From the NCBI GenBank assembly GCA_028702675.1, contig JAQVOJ010000023.1, forward strand, positions 1-33,025: DNA of 33,025 bases. The letters are read 5' to 3'. The DNA is from Bacteroidales bacterium. Its GTDB lineage: Bacteria; Bacteroidota; Bacteroidia; Bacteroidales; ML635J-15. The notes below the pieces were generated by a model. That model saw nothing but the letters and a program-made list of their open reading frames with translations, searched no databases and had not been told where the DNA came from. Below are positions 23,234 through 32,827 of the stretch, one piece after another (position 1 is the first letter of the stretch; each line of letters begins with the position of its first letter). The translations under genes were made by a program, and so were the position numbers.

Positions 23234-23620
23234 TTACTTCTTAGCTAAAACAGTTCCCTTTATTTCAAGGGTAATTGGCGTATTTTCGGCATTTGATTTA
23301 ATTACTATTGATTTATTAAAATTACCGGGGCGCCTTGTATCGTATTTAATTATAATATCGGCAGACTCATTTTTCATAATTGGTTTTCTGGGCCAATCAA
23401 CGGCAGCACAGCCGCAACTGGTAGTTACTTCGTTAATAACCAATGGGGTAGAACCGTCGTTTGTTATTACAAACTTACAATTGCCATCGCCTTTGTATGG
23501 TATTTCGCCGTAATCATAAATAAGGGTGTCAAATTTCATAAGCGGTTTATTAGATGGGTTGCTTTGAGCTATTAGTAAGTTTGTGCTTAATGCTAAGAAG
23601 ATTATTGTTAGTAGTCTCAT
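23234..23620 (-). CDS. DUF1573 domain protein (secreted)
   Basis: A 128-residue protein with a signal peptide ending at LLIAQ, then a single Ig-like beta-sandwich: YDYGEIPYKGDGNCKFVITN, VTTSCGCAAVDWP, and DIIIKYDTRRPGNFNKSI onward to LEIKGTV. The Thr-x-x-Cys-Gly-Cys core and the order of strands are those of DUF1573, widespread in Bacteroidota and of unknown function, probably structural or binding in the periplasm. Its stop directly abuts the stop of the convergent M23 gene, with no terminator between. It is 47 bases downstream of the outer-membrane barrel gene and may belong to that transcript. Confidence 0.88.
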   Translation of the reverse strand: MRLLTIIFLALSTNLLIAQSNPSNKPLMKFDTLIYDYGEIPYKGDGNCKFVITNDGSTPLVINEVTTSCGCAAVDWPRKPIMKNESADIIIKYDTRRPGNFNKSIVIKSNAENTPITLEIKGTVLAKK

Positions 23621-23667: not shown

Positions 23668-24693
23668 TTAGTGATTATTAAAGTTTAAATCATACGAGAT
23701 ATTTACCGCAAAAGCATAATTAGTAGCTAATTGTAACCCCTTATACTTTTGATATAGTGGGAAATCAGCCATTATAGAAATGTTTAGCTTAGAAGCAATT
23801 GTATAATTTATTTGCGGAGAAATAAAGAATACATCGCTACCCGAATTCCTTGTTGTTTCCCATTCTTCATATACAGGATTATCACCTTGGCTAATTTGTG
23901 ATCTCATTTGGTTTTGCCACTTATGTTCATGCCGAACTTGTAGTATTACAGTCCAGTTTTCGCTAAGCCATGCAAGTGCAGGAGGCATGTGTAAATGCTT
24001 AGTTACAAAAAATGAAGTATTAAGAGAATTCCCAAAATTATATTGTTTCTTTTGGAAGAAACCTTCGGGTGTAATAAAATTGTGTTCGTAATTTACAAGA
24101 GCAAAAAGGCGTAGTGCACTAAAGGGGTATTCTTTAATAATGTATAATTGTGTAACAAAGCCCATGCATCCCAAAGAAGGTTGTACGTCTGGATGTAAGT
24201 CTGCCATAAAATTGCCCTCTGCCAATATTTGCTTTTTTCGACGTAGGGGTATTTTAGCACCAGCTTTTGCAGAAATCTCAAATCGATTTACAGGATTGTA
24301 ATAAATATTGTATTTTGCTGATAAAACGATATTACTAAAACCATAGCCTCTACTTGGCGTAATAAAATTCTTTATTTTATTTATATAATATCCTCCATCT
24401 GCTTCTAAAGTTAATTTGTTTGTTACTCCGTATGCCAGCATCATTGAGGCATAATTGTAAACGGCATCAGCCATTTGGTATAAAGAGTTTTCAAAAAGTT
24501 CATCCTCCAAAAAGTATCTTCCAGAATAACTATGTTTATAAAATGTATTAAATTTTAGAACATTTTTTTCCATTACCCCCATATTTGCTGTACCACCAAT
24601 AGGATTGCCTGTTGATGAAAAACACTGGGCAAATAAACCGTAACTAATAAAAATCAATAATGAACTTAAAATTAGAATTCTACCACTATTCAT
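23668..24693 (-). CDS. Outer-membrane beta-barrel protein, transporter-like
   Basis: A 341-residue protein with a signal peptide (to about residue 22, cut near AQC). The chain alternates hydrophobic and polar residues with many Tyr, Asn and Phe, ending in NYAFAVNISYDLNF, a barrel-closing strand. The mature start CFSSTGNPIGGTANMGVM is common to Bacteroidota barrel proteins annotated as transporters or MetA-pathway-like. A barrel of roughly 12-14 strands is likely. Substrate is unknown. It follows the small lipoprotein gene by two bases, and barrel plus lipoprotein may form one outer-membrane complex; that is inference. Confidence 0.75.
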   Translation of the reverse strand: MNSGRILILSSLLIFISYGLFAQCFSSTGNPIGGTANMGVMEKNVLKFNTFYKHSYSGRYFLEDELFENSLYQMADAVYNYASMMLAYGVTNKLTLEADGGYYINKIKNFITPSRGYGFSNIVLSAKYNIYYNPVNRFEISAKAGAKIPLRRKKQILAEGNFMADLHPDVQPSLGCMGFVTQLYIIKEYPFSALRLFALVNYEHNFITPEGFFQKKQYNFGNSLNTSFFVTKHLHMPPALAWLSENWTVILQVRHEHKWQNQMRSQISQGDNPVYEEWETTRNSGSDVFFISPQINYTIASKLNISIMADFPLYQKYKGLQLATNYAFAVNISYDLNFNNH

Positions 24694-24695
24694 AA

Positions 24696-25064
24696 TTAAT
24701 TAGCTATTAATATTATCGAATCCCTCTTTGTTTCTTCTCTATTGTCGGCTATAATTGTGCAGTCAACGTATTTTTTCCCTGGATTTAGGCAAGGGTCTGC
24801 ATAAAAAAGAACTACACTGTCAACACCTTCGATAGGTATTAATGGAGCATTACTGCTAGTTTGCCAGTAGTAAACCAGATTTGTGCCAGTTGCATGAGCT
24901 GTAACTCTTGTTGTATCTAACATGCTAATAGTATCGAGTTCTATGTTTACGCCAATGAACTCTTCGAGATATGATTCATCTTCATTTCCGTTTCCGTTGT
25001 TATCGTCGCAAGCATAAAAACTGAATGCGAGACCTAAAATTAAAAAAAATACAATTTTTCTCAT
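24696..25064 (-). CDS. Small lipoprotein with Ig/PKD-like domain
   Basis: A 122-residue protein with a signal peptide and lipobox (SFYAC, Cys19), followed by an Asp/Asn/Gly-rich tether (DDNNGNGNEDES). Such acidic residues right after the Cys are the known surface-export pattern of Bacteroidota lipoproteins, so it is probably surface exposed. The rest looks like a single Ig/PKD-like beta-sandwich with two Cys (in DPCLNPG and VDCTI) that could form a disulfide. It lies two bases from its neighbours on each side, within a four-gene surface cluster. Function not recognised. Confidence 0.72.
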   Translation of the reverse strand: MRKIVFFLILGLAFSFYACDDNNGNGNEDESYLEEFIGVNIELDTISMLDTTRVTAHATGTNLVYYWQTSSNAPLIPIEGVDSVVLFYADPCLNPGKKYVDCTIIADNREETKRDSIILIAN

Positions 25065-25066
25065 AA

Positions 25067-27136
25067 CTAATTATTTTTAAGACATCTAACTGATAATGAC
25101 CATGATTTTGGGAATGTATCCCATCTACCAACATTTGAATCTCCTGCACGTAAGCATCTACGAAAAGAATTTGTAGCCCCCATTTCTGAAGCAGTATTAG
25201 GATAATCGTAAGAATTAATAAGAGCGAAACTGTTAGCTCCTGCCATTCTTCCTCCAAAAATACTTTCGTATCCCGATGAGCCTCCTGCTAGCATATCGGT
25301 ACCTACAGGAGATCCACGCCAAGTATTAAGCATGTCAGCTTCGGTTTGAGTCATTCCTAATTCCATTTCTAAAGTTTTGTATTCTTCATCGGTAGGTACA
25401 TGCCAACCGGGTGGACATATTCCTTGATGATTACTTGAAATTTGAGCTGCACACGAAGTAGTTTCGCAAGAGTTAGGTAGGTCCATCATTTCACGCCAAG
25501 TATATAATCCTCCAAAAATATCACAATTGTCGGTATTGTTATTGTAACAATATTTTTCTACTACACCGTTATCAGTAGCATGAACATTTCCTTGTGTATA
25601 AGTTCCGTAATTGAGGTTTTCGGAAAACCAACATTGGTCTCCAATTTGAACCGTATTGTATGTTTGCCCGTCTCTAGTATCAAGAAATGGTTGCCCACAC
25701 GCCCATGCATTAGAAAAGCTAATAATTACATCATCATAAGATTCTCCACAGGAATTACTTATAGTCCATCTTAGTTGATAGGTTTCGCCTGATTGTCCTG
25801 TAAATTGGGTATTGTATTGTGAACTGTTGCTAAAGTTTCCACCTGTACCGCTTATAATGCTCCATTCACCTGTGCCATTTGTTGGATTGTTTGCTTCAAG
25901 GCTTGTGTTAGAGCCTGATATTCCAGTTTGATCGGGACCTGCATTTGCTTGGTCGGGTAAGGGTAAAATATTTACGAAAAATTCGGATGCTGTTCCTTGT
26001 CCGCAATCGTTGATAGGAGCGACACTAATGTTTCCTGATTGAGCTGTATTGGAGAAGTTTACACTTATGCTATAAGTAAATTCCCCTGCTACTATTGTAG
26101 CGTCTTGAGGTAAATTCCATTGATAGCCGGTCGCATTATTTACAGGAGAGATACTATAATTAATTCCTGTTGTTCCTTGACATATATCAGTACTTCCTGA
26201 AATAGTTCCTGCTGCTTCGGGTAGTTCTGCGATTGTAACTTCAGTATTTACTGCTTGTGATGCACCGCAATCGTTGCTAGTTACTAATGTATAAGTACCT
26301 TCGTGTTGAAAGCCAACCGGAAATATAATAGGGTTTTCAAGATTGCTTGTAAATCCATTTGGCCCTGTCCACGAACAGTTTGCGCCTCCTGCATTTACAG
26401 CAAATAATTTTAGAGTATCGCCTTCGCATGCAGGACTATTTGTGTTAATATTAGGTTGGGGTGGGGGTATGCAATCTCCACACAGCTCGAACCATCCGCC
26501 TGGTTTGTACACATTAATACAATCGGTGTCTAAATTGTAAATCATAAGTCCTATTTCGGGGGTGCTTATTAAGTCTCGTTGGTCTTCTGTCATTCGAGGT
26601 GGTAAAAAACCTTTGCTTGTGCTATTAATTTCTAAGGCTGCACTCGAATGTGGATTTTCTGTGCCAATGCCAACGTTTCCCGAATTGTAATAAATATCAT
26701 TTCCTATCGCAGTCCATAACGAAGAACCTCCTGATCCACTTCCTGAAGTTTCTGCATAAAATGCGTAAGGTACTGAAAGCAACTGGCTAACTCCCATTGT
26801 GCTATAATTAAGTCCACCGGTTGTGTCCATATCAACTTTTATCCATTTGCTTTGTCCGTTTCCCCATTGAATATGGCTTAAATCGGTGTTGCTGTTACCT
26901 TCGCCTATATTAAGGTTTACAAGTCCCAACTCGTTACTTTGTGTTATATGACTTTCTTGATATACAATTACTCCGTCATCTGAGCCTTCAAGGATTGTAA
27001 AACGTAATCTAATATCTTGATTACAAATTGCCTGTCCGCCTTCGTTACGCACAACTGCCTGATATTTTATGCTTTGTGGTACTTGTGCAAGTAACAGTAG
27101 TGGAAAGAATAATATTATTAATGTAAGTAGTCTCAT
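25067..27136 (-). CDS. Large secreted multidomain protein with C-terminal FISUMP domain
   Basis: A 689-residue protein with a signal peptide (to LLLAQ). Order of parts: an N-terminal domain (about 18-130, QSIKYQAVVRNEGGQ start) usual ahead of FISUMP domains; a phage tail-fibre-like segment (about 145-200, NVGIGTENPHSSAALEI); two or three Ig/PKD-like domains (about 220-475), the last with PDQANAGPDQTG; and a C-terminal Fibrobacter succinogenes major paralogous (FISUMP) domain (about 480-689) with DTRDGQTYNTVQIGDQCWFS, CPPGWHVPTDEEY and the end LSVRCLKN. It is probably an adhesin or binding protein at the cell surface. No T9SS sorting domain is seen at its end, unlike the neighbour upstream. 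Confidence 0.85.
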   Translation of the reverse strand: MRLLTLIILFFPLLLLAQVPQSIKYQAVVRNEGGQAICNQDIRLRFTILEGSDDGVIVYQESHITQSNELGLVNLNIGEGNSNTDLSHIQWGNGQSKWIKVDMDTTGGLNYSTMGVSQLLSVPYAFYAETSGSGSGGSSLWTAIGNDIYYNSGNVGIGTENPHSSAALEINSTSKGFLPPRMTEDQRDLISTPEIGLMIYNLDTDCINVYKPGGWFELCGDCIPPPQPNINTNSPACEGDTLKLFAVNAGGANCSWTGPNGFTSNLENPIIFPVGFQHEGTYTLVTSNDCGASQAVNTEVTIAELPEAAGTISGSTDICQGTTGINYSISPVNNATGYQWNLPQDATIVAGEFTYSISVNFSNTAQSGNISVAPINDCGQGTASEFFVNILPLPDQANAGPDQTGISGSNTSLEANNPTNGTGEWSIISGTGGNFSNSSQYNTQFTGQSGETYQLRWTISNSCGESYDDVIISFSNAWACGQPFLDTRDGQTYNTVQIGDQCWFSENLNYGTYTQGNVHATDNGVVEKYCYNNNTDNCDIFGGLYTWREMMDLPNSCETTSCAAQISSNHQGICPPGWHVPTDEEYKTLEMELGMTQTEADMLNTWRGSPVGTDMLAGGSSGYESIFGGRMAGANSFALINSYDYPNTASEMGATNSFRRCLRAGDSNVGRWDTFPKSWSLSVRCLKNN

Positions 27137-27138
27137 GG

Positions 27139-28284
27139 CTAGTAAATTGATATTTTATCTTGATGTATTAATGAATTATTATTATCAAAGATACTTAATA
27201 AATATGTTCCCTGTTTAATGTCGTTAACAATTATTTTTCCATTTAAACATGTGCCTTGTTTAATACATTTTCCGAGAATGTTATAGATTTTATATGATGA
27301 CTTATTCTTAATTCCGCTTATTTTGATGTAATTATCACTTGGGTTGGGATAAATTATTATAATATTAGAATCATTCTGATAATTCCCTGTATGCTCGTTT
27401 GCAGCCCCTTCGAAAACACATCTTACATAATTATTTACATAAACAAATCCGGCACAGTTTTCCCATTCACCTGTAAGATTATTAACTGACCATCTTTTTA
27501 CAGCATAAGTTTTAAATAATGAAGAAGTCCATAAATAGCAATTATTATTTCCTTGATATGCTATATCGAAGCCATTTCCTGTTCCTTCTTCATCGTTAAA
27601 GTGCCCAACTTCTAAGTCGGTAGGGAGTCGCCAGCCTTTACCGTATTTGCTAACACAATAGCTTGTATGCTGGGCAGTGTCTAATTGTTGTTGCGAGTAT
27701 CTTTGATTTAAACTTCCTTGAGGTTTTATTTCTCCGGCACTTATTAGTTCTTCGCCTGTCCATAGCTGATAGGTTCCTGTATCGGGTAAATATTCAGGAT
27801 ATGCTAATGTTTCTATGTTTCCACTTATTGTAGCATTGCAATCGCCATAATTGCAATTAGTAAATTCTTGGTCTAAAGCTTTTGCATAATTCATTATTTC
27901 GTCTGAAAGTGGACTTACAAACATTTTTGTTCTGTCGAATTCCGAATATTCGCTTAAAACAGATTGTTCGTCCCATGCAAAATTATTGTCGTTAGGTGTA
28001 ATATTTGTTCCATAGCCACGTAATTCTAATGTATCGATGTAATTTCCATTTGGGGTTTCGCTTAGGTCGGGAATTAAAACATATTGCAAATATCTATATT
28101 GTTTGTGATTTTCGGAATACTGATATACAAAATTTCCGTTGTTAATAGTAACATCATTAAAACCTATTTCAGACTCTGTAATATAAGCCTCGTTGCCATT
28201 GCTGTAGTGGTTTTGTGAATGCATTGATAAACCGGCAATGACGAGGCAACCCAATAGCAGACCGATTTTAAATATATTTGGCAT
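27139..28284 (-). CDS. Secreted protein with lectin-like DUF1566 domain and T9SS sorting domain
   Basis: A 381-residue protein starting at 28284 (MPNIFKIG) rather than 28299, with a signal peptide. The middle (about residues 200-300) carries GKGWRLPTDLEVGHFNDEEG and an NCYLWTSSLF ... YVRCVFEG pattern, as in DUF1566/FISUMP-like C-type-lectin-fold domains. The last 75 residues (IIYPNPSDNYIKI, then YKIYNILGKCI and DIKQGTYLLSIF) are a type A C-terminal sorting domain, so it is a cargo of the type IX secretion system and ends up on the surface or released. First gene of the four-gene cluster; two bases from the FISUMP gene. The ligand is unknown. Confidence 0.85.
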   Translation of the reverse strand: MPNIFKIGLLLGCLVIAGLSMHSQNHYSNGNEAYITESEIGFNDVTINNGNFVYQYSENHKQYRYLQYVLIPDLSETPNGNYIDTLELRGYGTNITPNDNNFAWDEQSVLSEYSEFDRTKMFVSPLSDEIMNYAKALDQEFTNCNYGDCNATISGNIETLAYPEYLPDTGTYQLWTGEELISAGEIKPQGSLNQRYSQQQLDTAQHTSYCVSKYGKGWRLPTDLEVGHFNDEEGTGNGFDIAYQGNNNCYLWTSSLFKTYAVKRWSVNNLTGEWENCAGFVYVNNYVRCVFEGAANEHTGNYQNDSNIIIIYPNPSDNYIKISGIKNKSSYKIYNILGKCIKQGTCLNGKIIVNDIKQGTYLLSIFDNNNSLIHQDKISIY

Positions 28285-28288
28285 AATG

Positions 28289-28296
28289 CAAATATA
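28289..28296 (-). promoter_or_regulatory. -7-like box ahead of the surface-protein cluster
   Basis: The minus strand reads TATATTTG, a full TAnnTTTG match, but it ends only four bases before the ATG at 28284. If real, the transcript would be nearly leaderless. No -33 TTTG was found at the expected distance, so it is uncertain. Confidence 0.35.
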
Positions 28297-28370
28297 CAAA
28301 TTTATTAAGAATTAATCTTAATATAAATATACGAATTTAGCAAGTAAATAATTTGTTTGTTAACAGTTAA

Positions 28371-29161: not shown

Positions 29162-32100
29162 TCAAGGATTTACATCAGGTTTTGGGAAACGGATATAAAA
29201 ACTTGTTCCTTGTCCGAGTTCTGTCTCAAACCAAATTTCGCCACCAATATTGGCAATAATATTTCTGACCATGCTTAGTCCAAGACCCATACCGCTAGAT
29301 TTTGTAGTGAAATTTGGTTGAAATATTTTAGGTTTCATTTCATCCGAAATACCGGTGCCATTATCAGCAATTTTTAGAATATAATGATTTATTTCTTCAT
29401 TAATCTCAATCGTAATTATACCATGTTGGTCGTCAGGGATTGCTTGAATACTGTTTTTAAGGAGATTATTAAATACTCTGAGTATTTGTTCTTTGTCTGC
29501 GGTAATAATAGCTTCATTAATATTATTAGTTATAAAATTTATGGTAATATTGTTTTCTTGCTTAAACAACTCAGAAGTATTATAGATTTTATGAATTAAA
29601 TTAACCCTTTCGTTTATAGGTATTGGCATTTTAGCAAAATTACTAAACTCGGTAGCAATAGCAGATAAAGTATCTATTTGTTCAATTATGGTTTTAGACA
29701 TTTTGTCGAGTGTTTTTTGCCAATCTTTATTATTTGGTTCGTAGCTGTGTACAAGATGTTGAACACTTAATTTCATTGGAGTAAGAGGATTTTTTATTTC
29801 GTGAGCAATTTGTTTAGCCATTTCACGCCATGCCGATTCTCTTTCGCTTTGAGCCAACTTTTGAGCACTTATAGCAAGTTCGTCAATTTTGCGATTGTAT
29901 TCTTTAATTAATCCTCCTAACTCGTCTCTGCGTTTATAATCAATTTTTTCTCCTTTTTTGCCAATATCTATTGTTCGGATTTTTTCTTGAATCAGTGCAA
30001 GAGGTTTTGTAAGCTGATTCCCAATAAAAACTCCTATTAAGATACTTACTAGCAGTAGTATCATAAACACATTTGTAAATGCTATAATAAATTCTGATAT
30101 TTCTTTTTGGAATTCGTCTTGATGGGCAAAATATGGCAGATTTAAATAGGCAATTACTTCGTTATTATAATTACGAAAAGGGATGTATGCCGACAAATAC
30201 TTTAATTTCCCAATTTGTTCTTCAATAATTACCATTCCTGATTTATAGAGCTTAAACTCTTGTATTGCTTGTGGTTTAATAAAACGACCTTGTAATCCGT
30301 TTTCATAAATTTCGTTTCTTGAACTTGCAAAAAGTAGTCCGTTTAAGTCGTAAATATTAATATCTGTGAAAAATACATTGCTGAACTTAATAAGTGAAAA
30401 CTCTGTAAACTCTCTAATGTCTTCGCTTAAGTAGGGTTCGTTACCAATTTTGTGCTCAACTTCTACTTGAACACTTCTTACTTTGTCCTGAAGGTTTTGT
30501 ATCTGTCGTTGTTTATAGCCTTCAAGAATGAAATAATACGAAATACTTCCCGTGAGTATAAGACTTAACAGTAAAATGCTCATTATCGAAACCTGGATTT
30601 TGTTCTTCATGCTTCCGGGTTTTAAAGCACCTTTCTTGTTTAAGGATTTAAGAAGTTGTATTAGATTGTTGATAATAAATAGGATAAAGAATATGATTGA
30701 AAATGCAACTAGTTTTGTAGAGTATCTCTCTCTTTTTAAGCTTATTACTATAATTGTATCAGGATCGGGTGTATAATATAAATGGCTATAATTGTTGTTC
30801 TGCACTAAATAATACTCTTCGGTCTGGTTTTCGGGTTTTTGTATTACTAAAGGGTATTCGTAAGTTCCTTTGAAATCTATAAGCCTGCCTTTGTTATATT
30901 TCGCGAAAGAATATGCTTTAAGTGTGCTTTTGGTAGCAAATGCTTTATCGAGTAATAACTCGGGGTAACCTAAACCTTCGCTAAATATTTTACTGTCAAT
31001 TTCAATAAATAAATTTCGTTGTGTACTATCATTGATAAGGTATTGAAAATAACCAAAATAAGAGATTCTGCCGTTGTGATTATCAAGATAATAAAAATTT
31101 GTTTCTGGAATTGGTATTCCTGTTTCAGATAGGATTTCGGAGAAAAATGTTAAGCAGTGGGTGTAAAGATCATCCGGTTTTATGAATAAGCTATCGTTAC
31201 CCTCGCAGATTGAGATTTGTAAATCGTATTTATTAAGGTATTTTTTAAAATGATTTTCATAAATAATATTATAAACTTTTTCATGGTCTTTTTGCATAAC
31301 ATACTTTGTAAGTTCCTTGTTATCATTAATCTCGTGATTAAGTATTGTTATAAAAAATTCTGCTCCGGCATCTCTTTCATTGGCTAAATTTGCTGCAAGA
31401 ACTTTTCTAATGTCTTCTTCCTTTTCATTAGAGATAGAAGTAAATTCCTCTGCAGAAATCATAGAAATTGCTATGATTATTAAAATTAGACTGTAAATAC
31501 TGTAATCTTTTTTAGTTAGTCTAATCCACGAAACTATTGAAATTACGAATATAAAAAATGTTAATGAGATAGCTGATTGTTGCGATATGAATAGAAAATA
31601 ATAAGCAGTAGATAATACTAACAATAAGGGTATGAAAATTTTATAATTTATTAAGCTTTCAAGTTGTCTAATAATTCTATCGAATATTAATAAAAACGAA
31701 AATATAATTAGTAATATAATAGTAAGCCCAACAATGCTATATGCAGAGATATTAATTATTGAAGCGAATGTAAATTCTATAGATGAGTTAATAACCAAAT
31801 TATTAAAAGAATCTATAATGAACGAGTAAAAGATTAATGAAAATCCTATAACCGAAATCATGATTATTCCAATTGCTGTATTATTAGCTTTTCCAGGTTT
31901 GTATGTAAAATATTTTTGAAATACTGCTGCAAATACAAAAAAGCATATTGCATTAATAAGGTAGTCGCCAAGCGATGGTAACCAGAAATTTTGAGCAAAC
32001 AATTCAGGTGAAAATAGTTTGAATTGATAAAAAATTGTAGGAAACCCGAATTTTAGCATTAAAAATCGTAAAATTATAAGGTCGGCACACAAGGCAAGTA

Positions 32101-32827
32101 ATAGTAACCAGTATAATTTAGTAATTTTTGCAGATATTTTAAATATAAGCACTAATAGTGTTAAAAATAATATTGTGCTTATTATCCAGAAAACTAAACT
32201 GAGTACTTGCAATATGTAATTATTGGGACTTATGTTTGCGTAATTTATGTAAAATAGCACTGTATCATTGTGCTTTACCTCATAAGAATGTTCATCTTGT
32301 TTTGAGCTAAATTTTGCTTTACAAGGTAAATTGAAGGTTTTGTTGAAGTTACTAGATAATAATTCGTTTTGGTAAGAATAGTCGTGAGAAATTAAGCATA
32401 AGCCTATGATATTAAGGTTATTATGTGTTTTGATAGTTTTTAGATACCAACCGTCAGAAAGCTTTATTAGCCTATTATCGGAGTTTATTGTTTCAATATC
32501 AATAGGTGCAGGGATTCGGTTTGTTGACCAAGATTGTAGAGTATCGTTCTGGTAAATAAAAATTCCTGATTCATACTCTTTAAATAGATTTTTTGTTACA
32601 TCAAAGAAGTAATTTTCGAGTTTTTGTTCCTCTACAATTCGATTTATAATATCATTGGTAATAGAATCTTGTAGTTTACATAAATTTTTTATGGTTTCTT
32701 CAGGTTTTGATGCCTCAACTACAGCTTCGGAGCCGGTAAAGGAATTTATTTCTGTTATTATTGCACTTACTAAGGATAAAATTAGTGCTGCAATAATTAT
32801 TATAATATGTTTGAATTTACGAATCAT
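29162..32827 (-). CDS. Polytopic NtrY-like sensor histidine kinase
   Basis: A 1221-residue membrane kinase. Order: N-terminal membrane helix (about 8-25), an extracytoplasmic region to about 205, a block of several membrane helices (about 206-455), a second large extracytoplasmic domain (about 460-695), membrane helices near 700 and 740, a third sensor region (about 765-900), a last membrane helix, HAMP (about 932-985), then the kinase core. The core shows AHEIKNPLTPMKLS with phospho-acceptor His1009, the N box (NNLLKNSIQAIPD), DNGTGI and GMGLGLSMV. The sequence around the His is NtrY-like. All ATP-binding motifs are present, so it should be active. No response regulator is found nearby. The signal is unknown. 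Confidence 0.92.
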   Translation of the reverse strand: MIRKFKHIIIIIAALILSLVSAIITEINSFTGSEAVVEASKPEETIKNLCKLQDSITNDIINRIVEEQKLENYFFDVTKNLFKEYESGIFIYQNDTLQSWSTNRIPAPIDIETINSDNRLIKLSDGWYLKTIKTHNNLNIIGLCLISHDYSYQNELLSSNFNKTFNLPCKAKFSSKQDEHSYEVKHNDTVLFYINYANISPNNYILQVLSLVFWIISTILFLTLLVLIFKISAKITKLYWLLLLALCADLIILRFLMLKFGFPTIFYQFKLFSPELFAQNFWLPSLGDYLINAICFFVFAAVFQKYFTYKPGKANNTAIGIIMISVIGFSLIFYSFIIDSFNNLVINSSIEFTFASIINISAYSIVGLTIILLIIFSFLLIFDRIIRQLESLINYKIFIPLLLVLSTAYYFLFISQQSAISLTFFIFVISIVSWIRLTKKDYSIYSLILIIIAISMISAEEFTSISNEKEEDIRKVLAANLANERDAGAEFFITILNHEINDNKELTKYVMQKDHEKVYNIIYENHFKKYLNKYDLQISICEGNDSLFIKPDDLYTHCLTFFSEILSETGIPIPETNFYYLDNHNGRISYFGYFQYLINDSTQRNLFIEIDSKIFSEGLGYPELLLDKAFATKSTLKAYSFAKYNKGRLIDFKGTYEYPLVIQKPENQTEEYYLVQNNNYSHLYYTPDPDTIIVISLKRERYSTKLVAFSIIFFILFIINNLIQLLKSLNKKGALKPGSMKNKIQVSIMSILLLSLILTGSISYYFILEGYKQRQIQNLQDKVRSVQVEVEHKIGNEPYLSEDIREFTEFSLIKFSNVFFTDINIYDLNGLLFASSRNEIYENGLQGRFIKPQAIQEFKLYKSGMVIIEEQIGKLKYLSAYIPFRNYNNEVIAYLNLPYFAHQDEFQKEISEFIIAFTNVFMILLLVSILIGVFIGNQLTKPLALIQEKIRTIDIGKKGEKIDYKRRDELGGLIKEYNRKIDELAISAQKLAQSERESAWREMAKQIAHEIKNPLTPMKLSVQHLVHSYEPNNKDWQKTLDKMSKTIIEQIDTLSAIATEFSNFAKMPIPINERVNLIHKIYNTSELFKQENNITINFITNNINEAIITADKEQILRVFNNLLKNSIQAIPDDQHGIITIEINEEINHYILKIADNGTGISDEMKPKIFQPNFTTKSSGMGLGLSMVRNIIANIGGEIWFETELGQGTSFYIRFPKPDVNP

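Follow-up and report, generated by a model that had tools for sequence, protein, structure and literature searches.

What might four exported proteins, encoded two bases apart on one strand of a Bacteroidales genome, do together? The window analysed here, meaning the whole 33,025-nucleotide stretch of DNA, carries genes for a T9SS cargo, a FISUMP protein, a small lipoprotein and an outer-membrane barrel, with a stop-to-start gap of 2 bp at all three junctions (Table 1). A first-pass annotation had taken these genes for a single unit with four exported products, namely two binding-type proteins, a lipoprotein and a barrel, and had known of no named system with this set. That picture was borne out: coordinates, strand and spacing were right, export signals are predicted on all four products, domain matches and a barrel model agree with the product types, and the set is conserved across relatives. 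The literature searched likewise yielded no name for the four-gene set, for the obligate lipoprotein/barrel pair within it or for the arsenic-associated sister of that pair described below, and the component parts all belong to known families or folds. Taken together, the operon probably serves to hold something at the cell surface or to take it up, and we tentatively read genes 1 to 4 as encoding a cell-surface capture module.

Table 1. Features of the four-gene operon (28284 to 23668) and its downstream neighbour, in window coordinates.
Feature	Position	Strand	Description
Gene 1, T9SS type A cargo	27139..28284	-	Sec signal peptide, weak Lcl_C-like domain, sorting domain
Lcl_C-like (lectin-like) domain of gene 1	about 27415-27675	-	Pfam 19.6 bits, under cut-off 34.9
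T9SS type A sorting domain of gene 1	27169-27354	-	TIGR04183
Gene 2, 689-aa FISUMP protein	25067..27136	-	signal peptide, MAT-N-like N-terminus, PKD_6, FISUMP domain
MAT-N-like N-terminus of gene 2	about 26888-27118	-	NF053851 34.4 bits, under family cut-off 60
PKD_6 domain of gene 2	about 25979-26221	-	domain match
FISUMP domain of gene 2	25076-25651	-	TIGR02145 / PF09603
Gene 3, 122-aa lipoprotein	24696..25064	-	acidic start, one Ig/PKD-like domain, two conserved cysteines (alignment)
Gene 4, 12-stranded outer-membrane barrel	23668..24693	-	predicted model; mature N-terminus QCF
DUF1573 protein with signal peptide, possibly a fifth member	23234..23620	-	PF07610 E 2.5e-30

Gene 1 starts with ATG at 28284, with an alternative TTG at 28299 in the open-reading-frame list. 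A few bases short of this start codon, at window 28282-28296, lies the stretch TATATTTG, which we take to resemble the Bacteroidota -7 promoter element, and because it ends so near the start the message may be almost leaderless. At the other end, the DUF1573 gene begins 47 bp past the barrel, and a DUF1573 gene also follows the barrel in loci L038 (6 bp) and L070 (7 bp). Elsewhere in the window, a nitroreductase gene is immediately preceded by a gene (29162-32827) for a histidine kinase of 1221 aa that begins with a long N-terminal membrane region.

Only gene 1, among the four products, has a surface-delivery signal of a known type. We class it as T9SS type A cargo on the strength of a sorting domain over the cut-off (TIGR04183, 35.4 bits vs 23) and of SprA in the genome (match of 2719 bits), which is 98.9% complete and holds 130 sorting-domain matches. 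Its Lcl_C-like region aligns with the FISUMP domain of gene 2 over the GWxxPxDxE region (hhalign 97%), which makes it probable that the two proteins have lectin-like domains related to each other. DUF1566 is presumably the older name of Lcl_C. The alignment agrees with the similarity of DUF1566 and Fib_succ_major reported in excerpts of PMC4159848. Across relatives the passenger of the T9SS-tailed first gene varies, with the 386-aa lectin-like type in the window and L038, a peptide of ~25 residues plus tail in seven loci, PKD-like passengers in six and different ones in L039 and L082. Of 393 genomes of the order, five have the gene 1-type passenger, and each of these belongs to the 20 with a FISUMP-type barrel (P 2e-7). 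In the window, L037, L038 and L066 this passenger and the barrel share a gene run (the passenger being behind the barrel in L037 and L066), and in genomes G082 and G186 it is on other contigs than the barrel.

Gene 2, predicted to encode a large, cysteine-rich, folded multidomain protein, matches both FISUMP models well over their cut-offs (TIGR02145, 109.8 bits vs 41.65; PF09603, 91.8 bits vs 33.9). No T9SS tail was found on it, the protein ending three residues past the FISUMP domain, and such a tail is likewise lacking in 27 of the 29 FISUMP-type loci that have FISUMP. The two others, L073 (over the Pfam cut-off) and L069 (under it), carry a T9SS-like tail on FISUMP itself and no separate tail gene, and since they are sisters in the tree we count this as one event. 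Among readable loci, L040, L070, L076 and L078 lack both an immediately upstream tail gene and a tail of FISUMP's own. Modelling of the FISUMP structure, which the first-pass annotation had suggested, went half way: a lectin fold is likely, and a firm structural match did not emerge. The model matched Lcl_C 8q4e at Z 7.8 (110 aligned, 5.1 Å) and InvE at Z 9.0 with an rmsd of 11.4 Å, and because PKD domains dominated the search we go no further than likely for the fold. A profile of the FISUMP protein found GhpA of Aureispira among solved structures, which the structure search puts on the PKD-like domain.

The word FISUMP was not found in the literature searched. One FISUMP protein is listed among cell-envelope proteins of the Fibrobacter membrane proteome in excerpts of PMC4619616, and the domain is described as a known target of diversity-generating retroelements in excerpts of PMC4159848. 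We rejected gene 2 as such a target, as reverse transcriptase (PF00078) was not matched in the window genome. A MAT-N-like N-terminus occurs on FISUMP in the window, L038, L039, L040, L076 and L078, and MAT-N as the barrel-docking part was rejected as a general rule because many FISUMP-type loci are without it. A putative disulfide joining the FISUMP N-terminus (YC) to the small T9SS partner (IPxCP) was set aside as evidence: both cysteines are present in 7/7 small-partner loci and absent at those places in six loci with a PKD-type partner, and, given that six of the seven come from the family of the window and that the seventh, where placed in the tree, groups with them, the pattern may be a single event. 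The window's genome also encodes two large FISUMP repeat proteins (L125:4087-11139 and L126:3505-6762) with a sorting-tail-like domain near the N-terminus, which precedes the FISUMP domains and thus cannot serve as a C-terminal signal.

Gene 3 is a predicted lipoprotein with the lipobox context FYAC-DDNNG, for which the first-pass annotation had claimed an acidic surface-export motif. The acidic start stood, and an exact match to a published consensus did not: the export (LES) motifs after the lipid cysteine are of the SDDDD, SDDFE or K-(D/E)2 type (PMC5080379), and the gene 3 sequence matches no consensus of that paper exactly. Mean net charge at positions +2 to +6 is -0.93 in FISUMP-type lipoproteins vs +0.48 in arsenic-type ones (some cysteines were misplaced by the script). 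The roughly acidic start of gene 3 is suggestive of surface export. Searched against solved structures, the lipoprotein profile returned only general Ig-like chains (best E 9.7e-5).

The model of gene 4 has 12 strands at a mean pLDDT of 79.9, and its best PDB match is the COG4313 channel 4rl8 (Z 26.3, 260 aligned, 2.4 Å), followed by FapF (Z 23.5) and then autotransporter barrels (about 19), with FapF ranking best by Foldseek E-value. From signal peptide to first strand there are about 20 residues with no long coiled coil, and the N-terminus, where a plug would be expected, is modelled at pLDDT under 50 (residues 12-35). By sequence, PF13557 gives 13.8 bits on the window barrel vs a gathering score of 22 and matches 4 of 17 relatives at E ≤ 1 (best E 4.2e-10), no NCBIfam family matches gene 4 at E ≤ 1, and the barrel profile matched no solved structure. 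Neither did the window barrel match any plasmid sequence; an arsenic-type barrel gave two distant plasmid matches named transporter. A distant family barrel (L058:5787-6911) ends in a cysteine- and histidine-rich tail (YYCPMHPDE...CSKCGMEL) that resembles a heavy-metal-binding domain.

Evaluating conservation, we found the barrel in 24 of 100 sampled relatives, at 102 profile matches in 80 of the 393 genomes of the order, and in 20 of 394 sampled phylum genomes at E ≤ 1e-30 (the window's own counted; best match outside it 4e-75). Surroundings were read for all matching relatives and for 76 of the 102 order-level matches, the other 26 all being weaker than about 1e-46, and the contexts of the resulting 91 barrel ORFs come from greedy gene calling and small home-made HMMs, with split ORFs at two loci. 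Barrels with a QCF or QCL start, as in the window, have FISUMP at most four genes upstream in 29 of 31 cases, the two others being L064, which has the lipoprotein/barrel pair without FISUMP, and L067, which ends at a contig edge. The lipoprotein is upstream in all 31, although at two of them a spurious ORF masked it and a six-frame search was needed to see it. Directly before FISUMP, a T9SS-tail gene stands in 17 of 23 readable loci vs 9 of 332 background genes (Fisher P 6e-18, treating related loci as independent, with a tail HMM trained partly on the same loci); when the 19 tails of the 17 upstream proteins and the two tailed FISUMP proteins were tested independently with TIGR04183, 18 were matched at E ≤ 0.01. 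The first-pass annotation had proposed looking for the same gene order in other Bacteroidota, and it is there: the full order with the T9SS-tail gene first recurs at 17 loci in 11 family-level groups, and the FISUMP-lipoprotein-barrel order in 16 family-level groups, which is more than chance.

The last two genes are also tied to each other. At E ≤ 1e-20 the lipoprotein profile has 61 matches in the 393 genomes, 58 of them directly upstream of a barrel match, and as the remaining three are repeats of tandem-domain lipoproteins that themselves stand upstream of barrels, lipoprotein and barrel make up one two-part unit. The converse is looser: counting distant members too, 70 of the 91 barrel ORFs have a called lipoprotein directly upstream. 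In a tree of 84 barrels the FISUMP-type forms one clade (28 rows, support 99/98), beside a sister set of 15 rows, less well supported, that starts with QCC and has no FISUMP. A further clade comprises 32 rows (100/97), and the surroundings are of the arsenic type in 29 of these; FISUMP is upstream of 0 of 46 QCC barrels. The arsenic-type neighbours comprise ArsR/SmtB regulators, ArsF, ArsG, ACR3 (Acr3), arsenate reductase, ArsP_1 permeases and DGC proteins, and a locus was assigned to this context if one or more of 15 neighbouring ORFs matched a seed set picked by hand, a loose definition that flags the FISUMP-type L069 too. Lipoprotein and barrel are thus an obligate, co-inherited pair that is older than the FISUMP operon. 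Because the pair occurs without FISUMP in two sister clades, of which one sits in arsenic-resistance operons, its older role must be a different one, and the earlier suggestion of lipoprotein and barrel as an anchor for the large proteins is not supported in that form.

The two proteins also differ between clades in their cysteines. Arsenic-type barrels start with QCC and pair with a three-cysteine lipoprotein loop, and FISUMP-type barrels start with QCF or QCL and pair with a two-cysteine loop, so that QCC together with the extra loop cysteine is found in 26/26 arsenic-type pairs, 2/15 other QCC pairs and 0/29 FISUMP-type pairs. Clear by clade as this change is, it comprises few independent events and therefore shows co-inheritance, not contact. 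The sister pair lies inside arsenic-resistance operons at L054:8513-9852, L085, L086, L093, L114 and other arsenic-type loci, and at L110, L113 and L114 two T9SS-tailed proteins (~260 aa, one thioredoxin-like) directly follow the arsenic-type barrel. An outer-membrane arsenic component of the lipoprotein/barrel kind was not found in the literature searched.

The explanation that we lean towards, while holding it short of even confidence, is that a COG4313-like outer-membrane channel with its lipoprotein has been re-used as the base of, or port for, a lectin-like surface layer that in part reaches its place through the T9SS. Its computed support consists of gene order, co-inheritance, clade structure and fold, from which we infer contact between the products, a FISUMP protein outside the cell, and the holding or passage of a ligand. 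In this picture the FISUMP protein and T9SS cargo would make up an external binding layer resting on a base of Ig-like lipoprotein and barrel in the outer membrane, and the barrel would be a channel, or former channel, for the bound ligand. For the tail-less FISUMP, the most likely route from the periplasm would be co-export with the T9SS-tailed partner encoded beside it; we count against the surface-module reading the 6 of 23 readable loci without a T9SS-tail gene upstream of FISUMP, the FISUMP-free pair of L064, the Pfam score of the barrel under the cut-off for its fold family, its low-pLDDT N-terminus, the restriction of known surface signals to gene 1 and the loose structural matches of the FISUMP domain. 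The cysteine change may mark a shift from a thiol or metalloid ligand in the arsenic operons to another ligand here.

It is unlikely, in our estimate, that barrel and lipoprotein serve only as an adhesin anchor, holding the FISUMP and T9SS proteins as PorP/SprF barrels hold type B cargo and transporting nothing. The cargo gene does adjoin a dedicated barrel, and barrels are known to carry and anchor type B cargo (excerpts of PMC9143113). The invariant N-terminal barrel cysteine also recalls the periplasmic SprF/PorG cysteines that are disulfide-linked to GldK (excerpts of PMC12635249), and the MAT-N-like N-terminus of the window and the five loci named above has a Bdellovibrio MAT counterpart that is expected to bind an unidentified surface element (excerpts of PMC10769870). 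However, the gene 1 tail is of type A, which uses the general carrier PorV (excerpts of PMC9143113), the lack of an NCBIfam match at E ≤ 1 extends to the PorP/SprF model, and the sister pairs in arsenic operons stand without a FISUMP-like surface protein. That last point bears equally on the barrel as a dedicated FapF-like exporter, which would pass the tail-less FISUMP, or part of it, over the outer membrane while the lipoprotein acted as a gate or chaperone: the sister barrels are without FISUMP-like cargo, the window barrel has nothing of FapF's long N-terminal coiled coil, FISUMP is large, cysteine-rich, folded and multidomain, and in two loci it bears a T9SS-like tail. We therefore regard export by the barrel as a long shot, even with FapF as second-best fold match, and best by Foldseek E-value, and with FISUMP so rarely tailed.

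Quite improbable, too, is that the operon transports small molecules or metals in the manner of the arsenic sister operons, with the FISUMP and T9SS proteins as mere accessories. The sister clade's place beside ArsR, ArsF, ArsG, Acr3 and arsenate reductase, and the lipoprotein/barrel pair as the constant part, speak for it, but the extra cysteines of both proteins are missing in all 29 FISUMP-type pairs and FISUMP association is near-complete in the clade (29/31). A broader and more doubtful version of the re-used channel would make the Ig-lipoprotein/COG4313-like barrel, a pair named by no family library, an undescribed two-part port of Bacteroidota with exchangeable service, either for a metalloid through paired cysteines or for a T9SS-delivered lectin layer with FISUMP exported in trans. 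The arsenic-type cysteines (CC in the barrel, three in the lipoprotein loop) would then handle a thiol-bound metalloid, and the port of the FISUMP operon would have lost these ligands, FISUMP and its tailed neighbour being a split cargo.

These findings bring together FISUMP proteins, an unnamed lipoprotein/barrel pair and T9SS cargo whose partner was unclear. Arsenic operons would gain an outer-membrane step through the sister clade, and should the T9SS-tailed neighbour of FISUMP export it in trans, gene order would allow tail-less surface proteins of Bacteroidota to be predicted.

Among known systems, the COG4313 / Phenol_MetA_deg channels (Pput2725, SphA, TcpY), proposed in excerpts of PMC4493636 to take up hydrophobic molecules, have the 12-stranded fold (by the model) and similar length in common with the window barrel, which differs from them in falling under the Pfam cut-off, in its dedicated Ig-like lipoprotein and invariant N-terminal QC, and in sitting with T9SS cargo and FISUMP. 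FapF of Pseudomonas, whose plugged barrel has a periplasmic coiled coil and serves to export amyloid subunits (excerpts of PMC5557850), shares the barrel fold of gene 4 as judged from the predicted model, whereas gene 4 has no N-terminal coiled coil and its neighbours are not amyloid subunits. Bdellovibrio MAT fibre proteins, one of which is known with a C-type lectin tip (excerpts of PMC10769870), have an N-terminal domain related to that of gene 2, although gene 2 scores under the family cut-off (Table 1) and many FISUMP-type loci lack the domain. With T9SS type B cargo and PorP/SprF barrels the operon shares a surface protein, the T9SS, a dedicated barrel and a conserved barrel cysteine, and unlike them it has a type A tail, no family match, its cysteine at the N- rather than the C-terminus and an extra lipoprotein. 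Sus-type uptake captures ligands at the surface with the lipoprotein SusD and a TonB-dependent receptor barrel. While the window barrel is small and 12-stranded rather than a TonB-dependent receptor, and its lipoprotein is Ig-like and not SusD, the window operon has in common with Sus-type systems a lipoprotein, an outer-membrane barrel and the proposed capture of a ligand at the cell surface.
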